A stretch of DNA of 28,398 nucleotides from a virus. Under the pieces are notes generated by a model. That model saw nothing but the letters and a program-made list of their open reading frames with translations, did no database searches and had not been told where the DNA came from. The position numbers were made by a program, and so were the translations under genes. The stretch covers positions 1 through 28,398 of the IMG/VR virus record IMGVR_UViG_3300004369_000918. The stretch is one strand, 5' to 3'. Position 1 is the first letter of the stretch. Each line of letters starts with the position of its first letter. Positions 15,917-28,398 of the stretch are shown here, one piece after another.

Positions 15917-16903
15917 TTAAGTATTGTGGAGCTTCATTAGATCCTCCATGCTTAAGGATCCTCCTTTCTCTATGGCTGCCTGATGAATGGATTTGCCTCT
16001 TGATTTTTCTATTCCCAGGTACTCCAAATCTTCTGTAGTAGCGCCGACAAGAGTAGAGCCGCCCCCGGCCGATCCTTCCATATCTGCTTTTATTTTCGCC
16101 TTAGAAGCGTCATCAACATTGCCAAAATCTAGTAATGCGCTTGGGTCTTTTCTTATTTTTTCGGGAATTTGCGCATTTTTCTCAAAAATATTTTTAAATA
16201 TCTTAGTATATACAATAAGTTTTAATTGATTATCCGAGAGCTCAACTATAGGTTTTCCATAAAAGCCAACAGTATCCCCAGAGAAGGGGAAGTAAATATA
16301 AAAGAAATCCTGAAGAACTAATTCTTGAATTTTTTGCTCGCTTAAATAAGCCGTAGTATCATTGAAGAGCCTTATGAGATTAGTCATTTCGGAATAAGTT
16401 AGCTCTTCCGCTGTTGATTCCGTCAAAAGGGGGGAAGAACACTCCGTGTTTAAGAAATATGAATTAATAATGTAATGGTCATTAGCGCGAGCTGAAGCGT
16501 AGGTCTCGCAACAATTCCCTACTAGGGAAGTTTTCTCCGTGAGTTTTTTCTGCAGAGACTCTTCGGCCTTCTCTATGTTTCGATTGTGAGAGTCAATGGC
16601 GCTTTTTAAGAAGAGGGCTTTCTTATTGTCCCTCATTGCTCTTATATAACTTTGTTGCTCCTCTATGAATCTGTCATCTTCAGGAGTCCAAAAACCTTCA
16701 TCGATTTGAAAGGACAGAGAGTCTTTTTCTGTGGGCAACCCTCTGCCCTTAGCCCTTTCATAGTGATCCTCGTAGACATCATTATAATCCACTTGATCAT
16801 GGGTGGACAGATGCTTAATGTATACCCTTTTCGAGTCAAGAAAGGCGGAGGAGTACCCCCTTACGATGTCCCTGAAGGCTTTTCTGTATTCTTCGCCTTC
16901 CAC
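15917..16903 (-). CDS. Conserved phage protein, possible tail assembly chaperone (C-terminal partner)
   Basis: 328 residues with GTG start at 16903; no in-frame ATG occurs until about residue 90, so GTG is the only reasonable upstream start. The protein is helical, with a charged coiled-coil-like region near 100-125 and a Gly/Ser-rich segment near 282-290. It lies in the same reading frame as the upstream gene, separated by one TAA and two codons (AAT AAT), and has no clear Shine-Dalgarno. This arrangement raises the possibility of a readthrough fusion, recalling the G/GT chaperone pair of other phages, which is normally made by frameshift and encoded just before the tape measure. No family is recognised with certainty. 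Confidence 0.45.
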   Translation of the reverse strand: MEGEEYRKAFRDIVRGYSSAFLDSKRVYIKHLSTHDQVDYNDVYEDHYERAKGRGLPTEKDSLSFQIDEGFWTPEDDRFIEEQQSYIRAMRDNKKALFLKSAIDSHNRNIEKAEESLQKKLTEKTSLVGNCCETYASARANDHYIINSYFLNTECSSPLLTESTAEELTYSEMTNLIRLFNDTTAYLSEQKIQELVLQDFFYIYFPFSGDTVGFYGKPIVELSDNQLKLIVYTKIFKNIFEKNAQIPEKIRKDPSALLDFGNVDDASKAKIKADMEGSAGGGSTLVGATTEDLEYLGIEKSRGKSIHQAAIEKGGSLSMEDLMKLHNT

Positions 16904-16909
16904 ATTATT

Positions 16910-17689
16910 TTATATATTATCGTTCTCGATGTCCGCCTCTAGGCTTTCGAAGTCTGATCTTTCCGCGCCAGCGCTAAAGTACCACAAACTAATAAACGAT
17001 AAAAGCTTTGACCGACTGCTATCAAAGATCTGATTAATTTCATCTCCTTCAGCCTCCTCCATTTTGTAATAAGAATCAAGCCTTTCTTCGTGTGTCTCTC
17101 CTACGAAGAAACTAGCTAGTTCGCTGTCCTCCTCATCCTCTTTTTTAATATTAACAATAGATAGAAGGTACCATAAGATCGCCCTATTTTGAGCCTTAAC
17201 CTCGGCAGTATGATTAAAAAGAGCCTGATAAGAGGATTCTATCTCTACTATGCCTTTTCGAGATTCCATCATCTCTTCCTGGATTTCGGTGGATTTCTTT
17301 TCCTCTGCAGGCGTCTTGGCCTTTTTAAGATCGAGCTTTAGCCATTTATTCTGCAAATCCGAAAGCTTACTATATAATCGAGTAAGGGATGTGGCGTCAC
17401 TCTCCGAAAGAAGCCCTCCTGTGTCTGAGTACTTCTTGGCGAGCATAGCTTTCGTGAGAATCCCCTTCTTGATGCATCGGCTCATTTCTATACTGTACTC
17501 CATGTCCGCCTCTTCTATTTGTCTTCGGCTTGGCTGCTTGAGCACTATCCTGTACGGGACCTGTTCTTGAGTGCTTACGCTCACCGAATGCTCCTCCGTC
17601 TTTCCCGTCTCCTTATTCTTCTTTTTACGGACTTGTTCCTTGGTTACTTCCTCTTCCTTGGAAACTGTAAATGAATATATTTCTTTCAT
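16910..17689 (-). CDS. Conserved phage protein, possible tail assembly chaperone
   Basis: 259 residues, starting 9 nt after the stop of the upstream minus-strand gene. An N-terminal strand-rich part (about 1-55) with a Lys-rich insert is followed by helices: R-R-Q-I-E-E-A-D-M-E-Y-S-I-E-M-S, then K-K-G-I-L-T-K-A-M-L-A-K-K-Y and a charged region (110-165). The pattern 'E..-(M/F)-x-S-(I/V)-...-K-G-I-L-T-(R/K)-A-M-L' recurs, as I remember, in proteins near tail genes of large phages that are thought to be assembly chaperones. The assignment is tentative. Same-frame adjacency to the next gene, interrupted by one TAA, is noted there. Confidence 0.45.
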   Translation of the reverse strand: MKEIYSFTVSKEEEVTKEQVRKKKNKETGKTEEHSVSVSTQEQVPYRIVLKQPSRRQIEEADMEYSIEMSRCIKKGILTKAMLAKKYSDTGGLLSESDATSLTRLYSKLSDLQNKWLKLDLKKAKTPAEEKKSTEIQEEMMESRKGIVEIESSYQALFNHTAEVKAQNRAILWYLLSIVNIKKEDEEDSELASFFVGETHEERLDSYYKMEEAEGDEINQIFDSSRSKLLSFISLWYFSAGAERSDFESLEADIENDNI

Positions 17690-17698
17690 GTGTGGATA

Positions 17699-17989
17699 TT
17701 ATTTTTTAAAGTTAAAGCTTATAGTAAATTTTTCTGAGTGAGATTCAATTTTCCTAATACTATTATTACCTAGGTCTAGTATCTTTTTTCTTAGATATTG
17801 AAGCTTGTCATCATCGAAATAATTAGCCTGGTCAATTATCGCGTGGTATTTCTTCGGCAAATTATCGTAAAGCTTGCCAAAGTTCTGCTCGTGGTCAAAG
17901 TTAAGGTCTTCTATTAAAACCAAGAATTCCTTAAAAAGGTCCTTAGTGTTCCTCGTGACCACCTCATTAAAAATTGTTTCAGCTTCCAT
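17699..17989 (-). CDS. Small acidic helical protein
   Basis: 96 residues; first gene of the minus-strand operon. Helical, acidic in the first two thirds (L-F-K-E-F-L-V-L-I-E-D-L-N-F-D) and basic near the end (N-F-K-K). No family recognised. The ATG is 7 nt downstream of a TATAAT box on the minus strand, the same close spacing as for plus-strand genes, supporting this start. Cotranscribed with the two possible chaperone genes. Confidence 0.6.
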   Translation of the reverse strand: MEAETIFNEVVTRNTKDLFKEFLVLIEDLNFDHEQNFGKLYDNLPKKYHAIIDQANYFDDDKLQYLRKKILDLGNNSIRKIESHSEKFTISFNFKK

Positions 17990-24002: not shown

Positions 24003-27000
24003 ATGGCATCAATCAATATAGACGTAGGGGCGAACGTAAACTTAAATCCGGGTTCCGTACGGAGGGTTAAGCGAACAGCCAAATCGCTTCTGGATGAGAT
24101 ATCAGGAGGGGCTCGAGGGGTTAATTTCAATATTAACTCAGATAGCTTTACTCAGCCCCTGGGTAAGATCACTAGCTCTGCTAATGAATTTACAAAATCC
24201 ATGGAAGCGTCCAACGCCCGGGTTTTGGCATTTGGGGCTTCCGTGGCTATTATCAACGGGATTCAGAACGCTTTCGCAAGTCTAGTAAGAACATCTATAG
24301 AGCTAGAGAAAACATTAACAGATATAAATGTAGTCCTAGGAGCCTCTTCTGCTACTTTGGAGGGATTTGGAAACAAGCTTTTTGCTGTTGCGAAAAACAC
24401 TGCATCCAGTTTCAGCGTAGCGGCAGAGGCTGCTCTCGAATTTTCACGACAAGGTCTTTCGATGGAGGAGACCCTTAGGAGGACTAATGACGCCCTTACC
24501 CTAACTAGGCTTACCGGTATGGACGCCGCCGAGTCCGTGAAAGGATTAACTGCAGCTATTAACGGGCTAGGAGACGCCACTTTAAACACCACTAATATAA
24601 TAGATAAAATGGCAGCGGTTGACGTTAAGTTTGCGGTTAGCGCAGAGGACCTAACGAAAGGAATAGAGAGAGCTGGCGCTGTAGCAGTAGACGCCGGACT
24701 AAATATAGATACCCTACTCGGTCTAATTGCATCTCTGCAACAAACTACTGCGCGAGGCGGACCTGTTATAGGAAACGCCCTTAAGACTATTTTTACAAGA
24801 ATACAAAGACCTAAAACCCTACAGGCGTTGGAAGACATGAATATAGTCGTTCGGGATTTAGGGGGTGGCGTTCTTGGCGCTGACAAGATATTGGCAAATT
24901 TGGCTAAAACTTTCGATGGGCTGACTCATTCTCAGCAGTCTAACGCCGTTCAAATGACTGCAGGTATTTTTCAAGCTAACATCCTCAGGTCTATCCTGAG
25001 AGACCTGAAAAAAGATCAAAGCCTCTTTGCCTCGGCTACAAATGTGGCCGCAAACGCTAGTGGGGAAGCAGCTAAAAAGACTGAGATGTTAAACAAAACA
25101 ATGTCCGCTCTTTCGTCTCAAACCGCTACCTCTATTCAGGAGCTCACCGAAACAGTGGGGAATATTATGTTAGCCCCGGGAATAAAAGATGTTCTTTCAT
25201 CTATTAAATTTGTAGCCGATTTTTTCAACAAAGTATTCGGGGGAGGAGAGGAGAAAGGTAACAAATTCGCTACCGGCCTTCTTGCTGGGCTAGGAAATGT
25301 TTTAACAGGCCCGGGGCTGGCTCTTATGGCGGCTGTATTCGGAAAGCTTTTAATTGGTGTAACGAAATTTGGAGCCCAGGGAATTGCAGAAATAACGGGA
25401 ATGGTTTCAGCTAAATCGAAGCAGAAGGCTATAGAGGAAAAAATATTATTAATACTTCAAACAAACAAAAAAGTAATCAGGGATCTTAGCCTCCTGGAGG
25501 GGCAGAGAGGGGAGCAAGAAAAGTACATTCTCGGTTTAATAGAGAGACAGACCGCAGCCCTAGCGAGTCAACAGGCCTTGTCTCGAGGTGTGGCAGCTGC
25601 CGCAGTAAGTAGAGGGGTCTCGGCAGACCTCGTGCTACCTACACGTGGAAGAGGCACTTCAGCCAGAACGCCAGCTTCTTCGGGATTCATACCGAATAGT
25701 CAGAATGATAATCGAGCGGCGGCTGTCGGGTTTGTTCCTGCTCAACAAGAAAGGAGGGCGGCGAGAAAAGGAGGTTACACTCCGGGGCCTATAGCCTCTA
25801 TGGATATCCCGAGATTTGGATCGGTGGTATACAATAAAGCAGAAACAGTAAAGCAGTTTCCGCAATTTAGTCAGCCTGCTATCATGCCACCTCATTCTAG
25901 CAAAGCGGGGCAGAAGTATGAGAAAAGCTTCAAAAAAGCTCACGGGTTTGATCCCTATAGCTCCGACGGGCTTATCCCCAACTACGCTATAAGAAATAAT
26001 CCCAGGATGAAGGTTCACGGTCCTCCGGCTGGATTCGGAACCGGAATCCCTTCAGCAGTAGCTGGGCGCCTAGCAAAGTCTAGGGCAGGGCTCGAGGGTA
26101 ATATGGAATTTTCGATTGCAGCCTCTCTGCTCAAAGGGGGTTCGTTTTCCTCTTTAGTTACTCGGCCCAATGGTCAAAAAGTACAGGTTGATATAGGGCA
26201 ACTTCTTCAAACCTTAGGGCATCGCAATATACATTCCACAATCCCAATCGCTCCCACCGCATATCCTGTGTCTCCCACGACAGGAAGGCTTACGGGGGAA
26301 GCTAGGAAAATTCTAGGATCTTCTAATTCTGGCAAGAAAGGGGATTACGGAGAGGATGTCTTTATGAAATCCCAAGAAGGGTCGGGGTTTGTGGCGACCT
26401 CCAAAAATGCCGTAGTAGACGCTATAGCCGCAGGACGTACGCCAAGAGAGATAAAGGCAGGGGCTATAGATCTGGGCGAGGTGGCCAAAAAAAGCATAAG
26501 ACTTTATTCCAACACAGGATTTCGAGAACAATTGCTTTCCGCATCCAAGGCTAACATGAATTCAGCAGATCCCGCAAAAAGGCAGGCGGCGGCGGATCTT
26601 CAAGTCGCCACAAAGAATCTAGAGACCGACAATATAGTTAATGGGCTAATGGAGCTGGCTAAGGCTGGACTGTGGAAGCCTCAAATGAAGCAGGGAGTGG
26701 CCCTCTCGGACTTATTACAAAAGGGGACGCTTGGGACATCACTACGTAGTGGGGATATTCCCATAGGAGGTGAAGAGACAGCCCTACTACAACGCTTCGG
26801 CCTGGCTTCAGGGATGATTCCGAATTTTTCTGGGGGGCGACGACCTTCGGTCAATCCGGACAATATAGGAGGAATAATAAAGTGGTTAAATGGAAACCCA
26901 GGAGCGAGCCTTAAGGATCTAAACAAGAAGTTCTCGATGGGTGGTCAGCCCGGGCACTGGGCGAATCCCAGGTACCCGAAAGCCAAGAGCCTTGAAGCAG

Positions 27001-28398
27001 GAATGAAACAGGCTGGTAAAATGCCAGAATATAAGGATTTCCAGCGTTTAGTAGGGGGCGCAGCTAAACAGGGGGTGTCCATCAGGACAAAGAGCTCAGC
27101 GACTAAAGACCAAATTCTGAAGTTAATAAGTTCATCTAACGCTAAAAACCCTCTAACCATGTCGGAATTGAGTGCCAAAACTGGCATCGCGAGTTTCACA
27201 TTAGACACCTGGAAGAAGGATCGAAGGCTGCCCCACGGCATAGATGGAGTAACGGCATCTCACGAGGCAGGGGCGATGAAAGCCATTGATCAGGTGAGGA
27301 GTCCTAGCGAAAGGGTTCGTCACAAAGGGTCAATGCAGTCTACTGGTCGAGGCCCTATCACCTTTAAGAGTTACGGAAAAGATCTCTTTATTCGCGGTCA
27401 ACTAGGAGCAATATCTGGAGCTACGTCCAAAAGCAAGAAACTCTTGGGCGCCCAGGCTTCCGAGCTGGCTGGCAATTTAGTTGGAGCTAAAGAGGGGAGC
27501 CCCCTGCTAAAGGACCCAGTAACTGGAAAAAGTATAGCTTCAGGAAATGTAGAGCTGGATGACAGGATAATGTCTCGAGTTAAGATAATAAATCCCATAG
27601 AATCCGCGAGAGGAAAGAGCCGAGCAATCGGACAAGGGATCGCAGATATGACGGAAGGGAAGTGGAATAAAATGGACGATAAGCAGAAAAAAGCATGGAT
27701 GATACAGGCGTCAGCCGACCCCGCCAAAAGTGCCAGCTTTAGGAGAGCTAAGGGGGCGGCTTGGGAAGGTTGGTCTGCCAAAACCATGGGAGCTACCTAC
27801 GGAACCCCTACAGGGGAGGGGATGAAATCCACCCCTCTTAACCCTTTAGTAAAAAGATCTCAGAGTGTTGCGAAAGGGTCCTTCAACGGGCGCAACGCGC
27901 CCCTTATTGAGGGAGGGAGGTATCCTGTTGACGCTATTAACGTAGCCGCGCTGGACAAAGTCATGAAAAACAAGACTTACCGACCCTCGGACGTTTTCTC
28001 GACCGAAGCCAAGTCTTCAAAGACATTATTTGGGTCGGCGTTAGACTCCCAGGGCGGCTCCCAAGGGCAAATCTTAAAGGCGACAGCGCTTAAGCATCTC
28101 CGAACTGCTCTTCTTCAGGGATATCCTCTTCATAAATTCAAGGAAGGAAATCCTAACCCGGCGATATTCGACAGCGTTCATTTGGGAACGATGAATATGG
28201 TAACCCCTTCAAAAATTGCCGGAGCAAGGAAAGCTGCCGGAGGATTTATTCCAAACTTAGCGAGAACGCCAAACGCCAATTTCGGGCCCGATTTCTCCGG
28301 AGGATTGGTTCCGAATTTTGCGATAGCTAAAAGCGTAAGGGATAATCTGCGAAAAGAACCCGATGGCCAAATCTCTCCGAATTTTGCGATAGCTAAAA
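24003..28398 (+). CDS. Tail tape measure protein (incomplete, runs off window)
   Basis: At least 1465 residues, open at the window end. Residues ~70-330 match the phage tail tape measure core (PhageMin_Tail type): V-A-I-I-N-G-I-Q-N-A-F..., L-E-K-T-L-T-D-I-N-V-V-L-G-A-S, S-R-Q-G-L-S-M-E-E-T, G-N-A-L-K-T-I-F-T-R-I. Hydrophobic helices near 425-460 may enter the host membrane. From ~560 on the protein becomes modular: motifs G-x-[IV]-x-x-N-x-A type (prolines at 564, 659, 940, 1417, 1437, 1459), a winged-helix-like segment near 1030-1080, and a nuclease-like domain at ~1245-1400. The family sets tail length and is ejected with the DNA, so embedded domains could be delivered into the host. Confidence 0.85.
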   Translation, partial: MASINIDVGANVNLNPGSVRRVKRTAKSLLDEISGGARGVNFNINSDSFTQPLGKITSSANEFTKSMEASNARVLAFGASVAIINGIQNAFASLVRTSIELEKTLTDINVVLGASSATLEGFGNKLFAVAKNTASSFSVAAEAALEFSRQGLSMEETLRRTNDALTLTRLTGMDAAESVKGLTAAINGLGDATLNTTNIIDKMAAVDVKFAVSAEDLTKGIERAGAVAVDAGLNIDTLLGLIASLQQTTARGGPVIGNALKTIFTRIQRPKTLQALEDMNIVVRDLGGGVLGADKILANLAKTFDGLTHSQQSNAVQMTAGIFQANILRSILRDLKKDQSLFASATNVAANASGEAAKKTEMLNKTMSALSSQTATSIQELTETVGNIMLAPGIKDVLSSIKFVADFFNKVFGGGEEKGNKFATGLLAGLGNVLTGPGLALMAAVFGKLLIGVTKFGAQGIAEITGMVSAKSKQKAIEEKILLILQTNKKVIRDLSLLEGQRGEQEKYILGLIERQTAALASQQALSRGVAAAAVSRGVSADLVLPTRGRGTSARTPASSGFIPNSQNDNRAAAVGFVPAQQERRAARKGGYTPGPIASMDIPRFGSVVYNKAETVKQFPQFSQPAIMPPHSSKAGQKYEKSFKKAHGFDPYSSDGLIPNYAIRNNPRMKVHGPPAGFGTGIPSAVAGRLAKSRAGLEGNMEFSIAASLLKGGSFSSLVTRPNGQKVQVDIGQLLQTLGHRNIHSTIPIAPTAYPVSPTTGRLTGEARKILGSSNSGKKGDYGEDVFMKSQEGSGFVATSKNAVVDAIAAGRTPREIKAGAIDLGEVAKKSIRLYSNTGFREQLLSASKANMNSADPAKRQAAADLQVATKNLETDNIVNGLMELAKAGLWKPQMKQGVALSDLLQKGTLGTSLRSGDIPIGGEETALLQRFGLASGMIPNFSGGRRPSVNPDNIGGIIKWLNGNPGASLKDLNKKFSMGGQPGHWANPRYPKAKSLEAGMKQAGKMPEYKDFQRLVGGAAKQGVSIRTKSSATKDQILKLISSSNAKNPLTMSELSAKTGIASFTLDTWKKDRRLPHGIDGVTASHEAGAMKAIDQVRSPSERVRHKGSMQSTGRGPITFKSYGKDLFIRGQLGAISGATSKSKKLLGAQASELAGNLVGAKEGSPLLKDPVTGKSIASGNVELDDRIMSRVKIINPIESARGKSRAIGQGIADMTEGKWNKMDDKQKKAWMIQASADPAKSASFRRAKGAAWEGWSAKTMGATYGTPTGEGMKSTPLNPLVKRSQSVAKGSFNGRNAPLIEGGRYPVDAINVAALDKVMKNKTYRPSDVFSTEAKSSKTLFGSALDSQGGSQGQILKATALKHLRTALLQGYPLHKFKEGNPNPAIFDSVHLGTMNMVTPSKIAGARKAAGGFIPNLARTPNANFGPDFSGGLVPNFAIAKSVRDNLRKEPDGQISPNFAIAK
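25680..28398 (+). repeat. Dispersed G-x-I-P-N-x-A motif repeats in the tape measure
   Basis: Six copies: S-G-F-I-P-N-S (25680), G-L-I-P-N-Y-A (25968), G-M-I-P-N-F-S (26811), G-F-I-P-N-L-A (28242), G-L-V-P-N-F-A (28302) and Q-I-S-P-N-F-A (28368). The last three are 60 and 66 nt apart. A 22-bp stretch is repeated exactly at 28311-28332 and 28377-28398, so a tandem array probably continues past the window. The widely spaced copies bracket unrelated domains. Confidence 0.75.
27732..28230 (+). other. PD-(D/E)XK nuclease-like domain within the tape measure
   Basis: Residues about 1244-1410 of the tape measure. A helix with R-A-K-G-A-A-W-E-G-W (Glu1255) is followed by Y-P-V-D-A-I-N-V-A (Asp1310) and, 25 residues on, F-S-T-E-A-K-S-S (Glu1335-x-Lys1337). 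This order, helix Glu, then D, then E-x-K on neighbouring strands, is the restriction-endonuclease-fold active site. The downstream helix (G-Q-I-L-K-A-T-A-L-K-H-L-R) also fits the fold. The domain lies between the third and fourth P-N-F-A motifs. The assignment is from pattern only. Confidence 0.5.

Follow-up and report, generated by a model that had tools for sequence, protein, structure and literature searches.

The tape measure protein encoded at the end of the analysed viral DNA (the window, a whole IMG/VR record of 28,398 bases) is modular: past a conserved core it consists of interchangeable domains spaced by GFIPNFA-like motifs. We regard it with roughly even confidence as a carrier of virion-delivered cargo, in which PD-(D/E)XK-like nuclease modules are included. 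An earlier note on this DNA had proposed one nuclease-like domain at residues 1244–1410 as a single unusual cargo of the tape measure. The general idea of nuclease cargo is borne out by another module of the same protein, designated as M1, and by related families in 69/80 relatives, while the domain named in the note is its weak part; in place of a single unusual cargo, a class-wide, modular, and swappable arrangement was found in these relatives.

Architecture of the tape measure protein

The open reading frame P0001 (24003..28397, plus strand) is the last one in the window, is sited after the tail genes, and runs off the contig end, with 1465 aa read of a longer product. Its identification as a tape measure protein in the earlier note was upheld by matches to PhageMin_Tail (E 1.5e-23) and to the PHROG tape measure family (E 1.6e-41), and no RNA polymerase domain was detected in it by Pfam or PHROG scans. 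The conserved core occupies residues 1–540 (24003..25622, plus strand), with 54–59% identity in A2 and phmmer E values down to 3e-183 against other GFIPNFA tape measures. It is followed by a constant module at residues 561–655 (25683..25967, plus strand; YNKAETVKQFPxxxQPAIMPP...HGFDPY), which is conserved in A2 and opens with the linker motif GFIPNS. Similar linker motifs, which recur between modules, are GLIPNY at residues 656–661 (25968..25985), GMIPNF at residues 937–942 (26811..26828), GFIPNL at residues 1414–1419 (28242..28259), and GLVPNF at residues 1434–1439 (28302..28319), all on the plus strand, and the GFIPNFA-like motifs of this protein therefore start at residues 561, 656, 937, 1414, and 1434.

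The search with the linker motif yielded hundreds of tape measure stretches, and the search anchored on the core and constant module of the window yielded 189 relatives, with 80 loci kept. The literature search (subscription papers and supplements lying mostly outside it) turned up neither a paper with the motif string GFIPNFA nor any mention of PD-(D/E)XK modules within tape measure proteins.

Nuclease-like modules

Module M1 (residues 662–936; 25986..26810, plus strand) lies between the motifs GLIPNY and GMIPNF and belongs to the A4 family of 29 divergent members. Its putative active-site set (26352..26492, plus strand) consists of E784 (26352), D806 (26418), E816-x-K818 (26448 and 26454), and K830 (26490); these five residues are invariant in 29/29 A4 sequences, which are 14–32% identical to the window, and D, E, K, and K of the set are invariant in the A6 alignment as well. 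Full-length relatives of M1 are present in L292, L269, L321, L323, and L310. Purifying selection acts on M1 at the sequence level (dN/dS of ~0.08–0.21 in close pairs where computable).

In the M1 part of the AlphaFold model of residues 655–1412 (pLDDT mostly 75–97 from residue ~705 onward and ~75–95 across 776–833) the predicted elements are a helix at 776–789 with E784, a strand at 797–798, a strand at 807–808 that adjoins D806, a strand at 815–817 with ExK, and a helix at 824–833. This order matches the alpha-beta-beta-beta-alpha core, but the strands are of 2–3 residues and the fold library gave no match. Like the PD-(D/E)XK superfamily, M1 carries E in the first helix, D in the second strand, and (D/E)-x-K in the third strand, in the predicted order of that fold; unlike its described members, M1 has no family-level match and is known here from sequence and prediction. 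Since the residue signature is present and neither a family nor a fold match was obtained, the module is termed PD-(D/E)XK-like and is given no named family. In Pfam, NCBIfam, PADLOC, and PDB sequences the M1 family had no significant match to a known nuclease family, and the sole nuclease lead was a non-significant match of one member to the EC869-like CDI toxin (E 0.031). A weak CG17282 match of A4 was rejected, as it spans the N-terminal half of M1, away from the active site. The 758-residue model (residues 655–1412), a poor query, gave only low-scoring unrelated chains in the fold search; no PD-(D/E)XK entry was among them, which is no sign that such a fold is lacking.

According to the residues and the model, M1 would be a nuclease module of PD-(D/E)XK-like type whose active-site set is intact and which is presumably catalytic. 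A different fold for M1 and its relatives, with the conserved acids and lysines kept for other chemistry or for a structural purpose, is improbable. Such a fold would explain why known PD-(D/E)XK families remained unmatched in library and fold searches and why the model strands are short, but the spacing and order of the residues, their E-V-K-S-G context, and the invariance of E, D, and ExK fit the superfamily signature, and the predicted element order agrees with PD-(D/E)XK.

The A1 family includes 75 copies in 71 GFIPNFA ORFs and has the signature GxxFE..D..[DE]xK..[KQ], which is complete in 74/75 copies. None of these modules, those of A1 included, was identified as a known nuclease by a match in Pfam, PHROG, NCBIfam, PADLOC, or PDB sequences, and lectin matches of the A1 profile in PDB were discarded as short and repeat-based (per-domain E ~0.5). 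The AlphaFold model of A1 (pLDDT 76) is of helix-strand-helix-strand-helix order, and the fold search with this model gave nothing at Z ≥2 in the VIA second look and nothing in the viral library. Profile iteration links A1 to a third set (F3), some members of which have a changed lysine: in L016, L041, L102, L253, and L269 the lysine of [DE]xK is replaced by His or Tyr (e.g., ADAH, GDAY), which may mean that the active site is altered or lost. One or more of the three sets (M1, A1, and F3) occur in 69/80 relatives of the window tape measure and in 164/208 motif-bearing ORFs; some tape measures carry two families, and many family copies end directly before a GFIPNFA-like motif.

The stretch named in the earlier note, a candidate second PD-(D/E)XK-like copy at residues 1244–1410 (27732..28232, plus strand), does contain the four residues where they were claimed: E1255 (27765, in GAAWEGW), D1310 (27930, in YPVDAIN), and E1335-x-K1337 (28005 and 28011, in FSTEAKSS). 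M1, which that note overlooked, is much better supported as a nuclease-like site. The bare pattern E..D..[DE]xK is frequent by chance, being present in 51–87% of shuffles and in 82% of unrelated 477-aa pieces, and this favours the reading that the stretch is no nuclease-like domain and that the four residues coincide in a cargo module of another kind. The strict pattern G..[FYW]E / hDh / h[DE]hK, which was drawn up after the window was seen, is found in 0–0.05% of shuffles and in 1/3,720 length-matched unrelated pieces (0.03%); its chance is ~0.0003–0.0005 per stretch, and ~0.0003 for a module-sized one. It is nevertheless present in 4/186 unclassified modules of GFIPNFA tape measures, namely, in residues 1244–1410 and in L002, L006, and L093, where 0.05 were expected, which argues against coincidence; so does the position of the segment directly before the GFIPN motif, where many copies of the related family also lie.

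Other results favour coincidence. Searches for relatives of residues 1244–1410 gave none in IMG/VR (peptide pattern), in 50,697 GenBank phage records (tblastn, E 10), in PDB sequences, or in the ORFs of 391 loci. The family-block score is at chance level (p ~0.5), the blocks being built from the related family and the score being low in power, as the accepted M1 family fails it too. Family profiles gave no support, and membership of the stretch in the A1 family was rejected because the profile alignment was limited to the GFIPN motif. In the AlphaFold model of residues 655–1412, built with no relatives for 1244–1410, the surroundings of the four residues are mostly helix with pLDDT ~28–39, and in this low-confidence, uninformative part the alpha-beta-beta-beta-alpha core was not seen around E1255–K1337. 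With a post hoc pattern, no homologue, no profile support, and a low-pLDDT model, the domain at 1244–1410 is plausible but unproven. From its sequence we lean slightly towards a divergent PD-(D/E)XK-like copy, and chance coincidence, which concerns this stretch alone and is compatible with the nuclease reading of M1, is a somewhat less probable but serious competitor.

Upstream of this stretch, residues 1027–1095 (27081..27287, plus strand) are helix-turn-helix-like according to a weak VIA fold match, the best one being to 1t6s_A, a hypothetical protein of Chlorobium tepidum (Z 4.5, 61 aligned, rmsd 2.8); they also align with several RNA polymerase complex chains at Z ~3. Probably, the string also contains a second, divergent module with this helix-turn-helix-like segment ahead of it (residues ~1027–1410 together), the module noticed in the earlier note.

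Exchange of modules and other module types

Recent in-frame module exchange is observed among related tape measures. The cores of L316 and L323 are 94% identical, with no module in common at >70% coverage, and for L311 and L312, the cores of which are identical, 2/3 modules are in common. Conversely, the cores of L322 and L367 are 75% identical and share a 250-aa module that is 97% identical, and those of L314 and L322 are 67.5% identical with one module 92.6% identical. An earlier survey was unable to confirm any genuine recent domain shuffling in tape measures (PMC10684548), whereas the swapped modules described here would represent a concrete case of it. A conserved carrier with exchanged modules, which is the mark of polymorphic toxin-like delivery systems, is present, and the modules may act as effectors.

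Enzyme types other than nucleases are represented by a nucleotidyltransferase-related module in L048:4835-6037:-, which matches the cytidyltransferase-related region PF16581 above the Pfam cut-off (E 3.2e-8), and by GNAT acetyltransferase modules in related tape measures (E 7e-8).

Several more modules were noticed on inspection. The module L310:14438-15160:+ contains the P-loop-like sequence GPSGAGKTEYAKTLG and has a weak AAA match (E 0.014). A module starting with LYRG(T/N)SPR recurs in L086:505-1284:-, at residues 836–1092 of the L269 tape measure, and from residue 1465 of the L297 tape measure; its likeness to ADP-ribosyltransferases was judged by eye, and Pfam gave no match for the L086 copy. 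A module with YDFDETLATYP is present in L253:3538-4002:- and at residues 937–1100 of the L292 tape measure, and the L253 copy, resembling a HAD phosphatase by eye, has no Pfam match either. Residues 870–1066 of the L311 tape measure and 893–1104 of the L004 tape measure look like staphylococcal nuclease (DGDSxxA, YGRxL). Assignments of modules by eye as ART-like, kinase-like, HAD-like, or SNase-like received no confirmation from Pfam and were not used as evidence. A short conserved module, NPLxxAIxREKxAGxPxxxI...NPxGLxVxNTRDEPxG, is found in the tape measures of L253 (residues 2320–2397), L004 (1309–1386), L293 (1608–1693), and L269 (1542–1619), and it seems to end the cargo string ahead of the C-terminal part.

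Proposed delivery, known systems, and genomic setting

Tape measure proteins exit the tail at infection. The tape measure lies in the tail tube and would come out together with the genome or before it, so that its modules would reach or cross the host membrane. There a nuclease module would cut nucleic acid, the likeliest targets being host, plasmid, prophage, or defence-related DNA or RNA. The lambda tape measure protein touches host inner-membrane proteins during injection (PMC13190303). What speaks against such delivery is size: a tail tube can hardly accommodate a folded domain this large, and to pass through it the modules would have to unfold, or else sit at the end of the tube. More tentatively, one widespread class of aquatic-phage tape measures may be cargo strings, in which a constant ruler core precedes swappable enzyme domains and each virion delivers several effectors, mostly nucleases, before phage gene expression, with the GFIPNFA-like motifs serving, as part of the same joint reading, as docking or cleavage signals.

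It is rather unlikely that the nuclease-fold modules handle the phage's own DNA, by binding or trimming the end of the genome that goes first, either in the tail or during entry. The near-ubiquity of the families (69/80) would suit such a housekeeping role, and their site inside the DNA conduit would suit genome contact, but close relatives swap or lose the families and have unrelated modules in their place, some tape measures carry two families, and modules of other kinds match enzymes that do not act on DNA, e.g., GNAT. It is also improbable that the modules are selfish inserts, endonucleases spreading homing-style into tape measure genes with no benefit to the virion. The in-frame swapping among relatives, the helix-turn-helix-like segment adjoining the nuclease-like stretch, and the reported frequency of homing nucleases at phage exchange borders (PMC10448857) would all accord with it. 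However, the modules lie in the tape measure frame with a conserved motif as boundary, include non-nuclease enzymes, and showed, on unsystematic inspection, neither an intron or intein nor an empty cognate site.

Enzymes fused to tape measure proteins are already known, and the best reading of swappable PD-(D/E)XK-like cargo modules is that they are a variation on these. The tape measure protein gp96 of Thermus phage P23-45 carries a fused virion RNA polymerase, which is proposed to act in DNA entry (PMC10770324). As in the present case, the enzyme domain is part of the tape measure polypeptide itself; however, the RNA polymerase is N-terminal and belongs to one group of tape measure proteins, whereas here nuclease-like modules of many types lie past the core and are swapped between close relatives. 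The Tme effector of Streptomyces davawensis (PMC11126660) is remotely homologous to tape measure proteins and has an endonuclease domain behind its tape measure-like part, but this domain is an EndA-type DNA-entry nuclease with the DRGH motif in a contractile injection system, in contrast to PD-(D/E)XK-like modules in a phage genome. The Sle1-type effectors of contractile injection systems in Actinobacteria (PMC13277306) also combine a tape measure-related carrier with diverse exchangeable domains; in these the domain is C-terminal and the system is a bacterial injection system, while the aquatic-phage tape measures have a domain series with a repeated motif. Polyvalent proteins, which occur in phages and conjugative elements (PMC5512222), likewise line up diverse effector-like domains within a single polypeptide; tape measures go unmentioned in that paper, whereas here the carrier belongs to the structural proteins of the tail.

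Should the modules enter the cell, tape measures would offer virion-delivered effectors a major route that has gone undescribed; these effectors would act before gene expression and evolve by module exchange like polymorphic toxins. Owing to the GFIPNFA motif such tape measures are easily found, which makes the idea directly testable.

Two contigs from genome collections, belonging to Flavobacteriaceae MAGs, carry a tape measure core 54–57% identical to that of the window, which hints at a Bacteroidota host; probably, it is an aquatic member of this phylum, as a lead from sequence likeness. Elsewhere in the window, three ORFs at 15917-17989 lie on the minus strand within an otherwise plus-strand structural gene block, the two longer ones having no Pfam match. 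A sigma-70 region 2 match just above the cut-off (E 1.1e-5) is located at 2236-2988, and a PhoH-like protein (PF02562, E 1.2e-50) is encoded at 569-1303.
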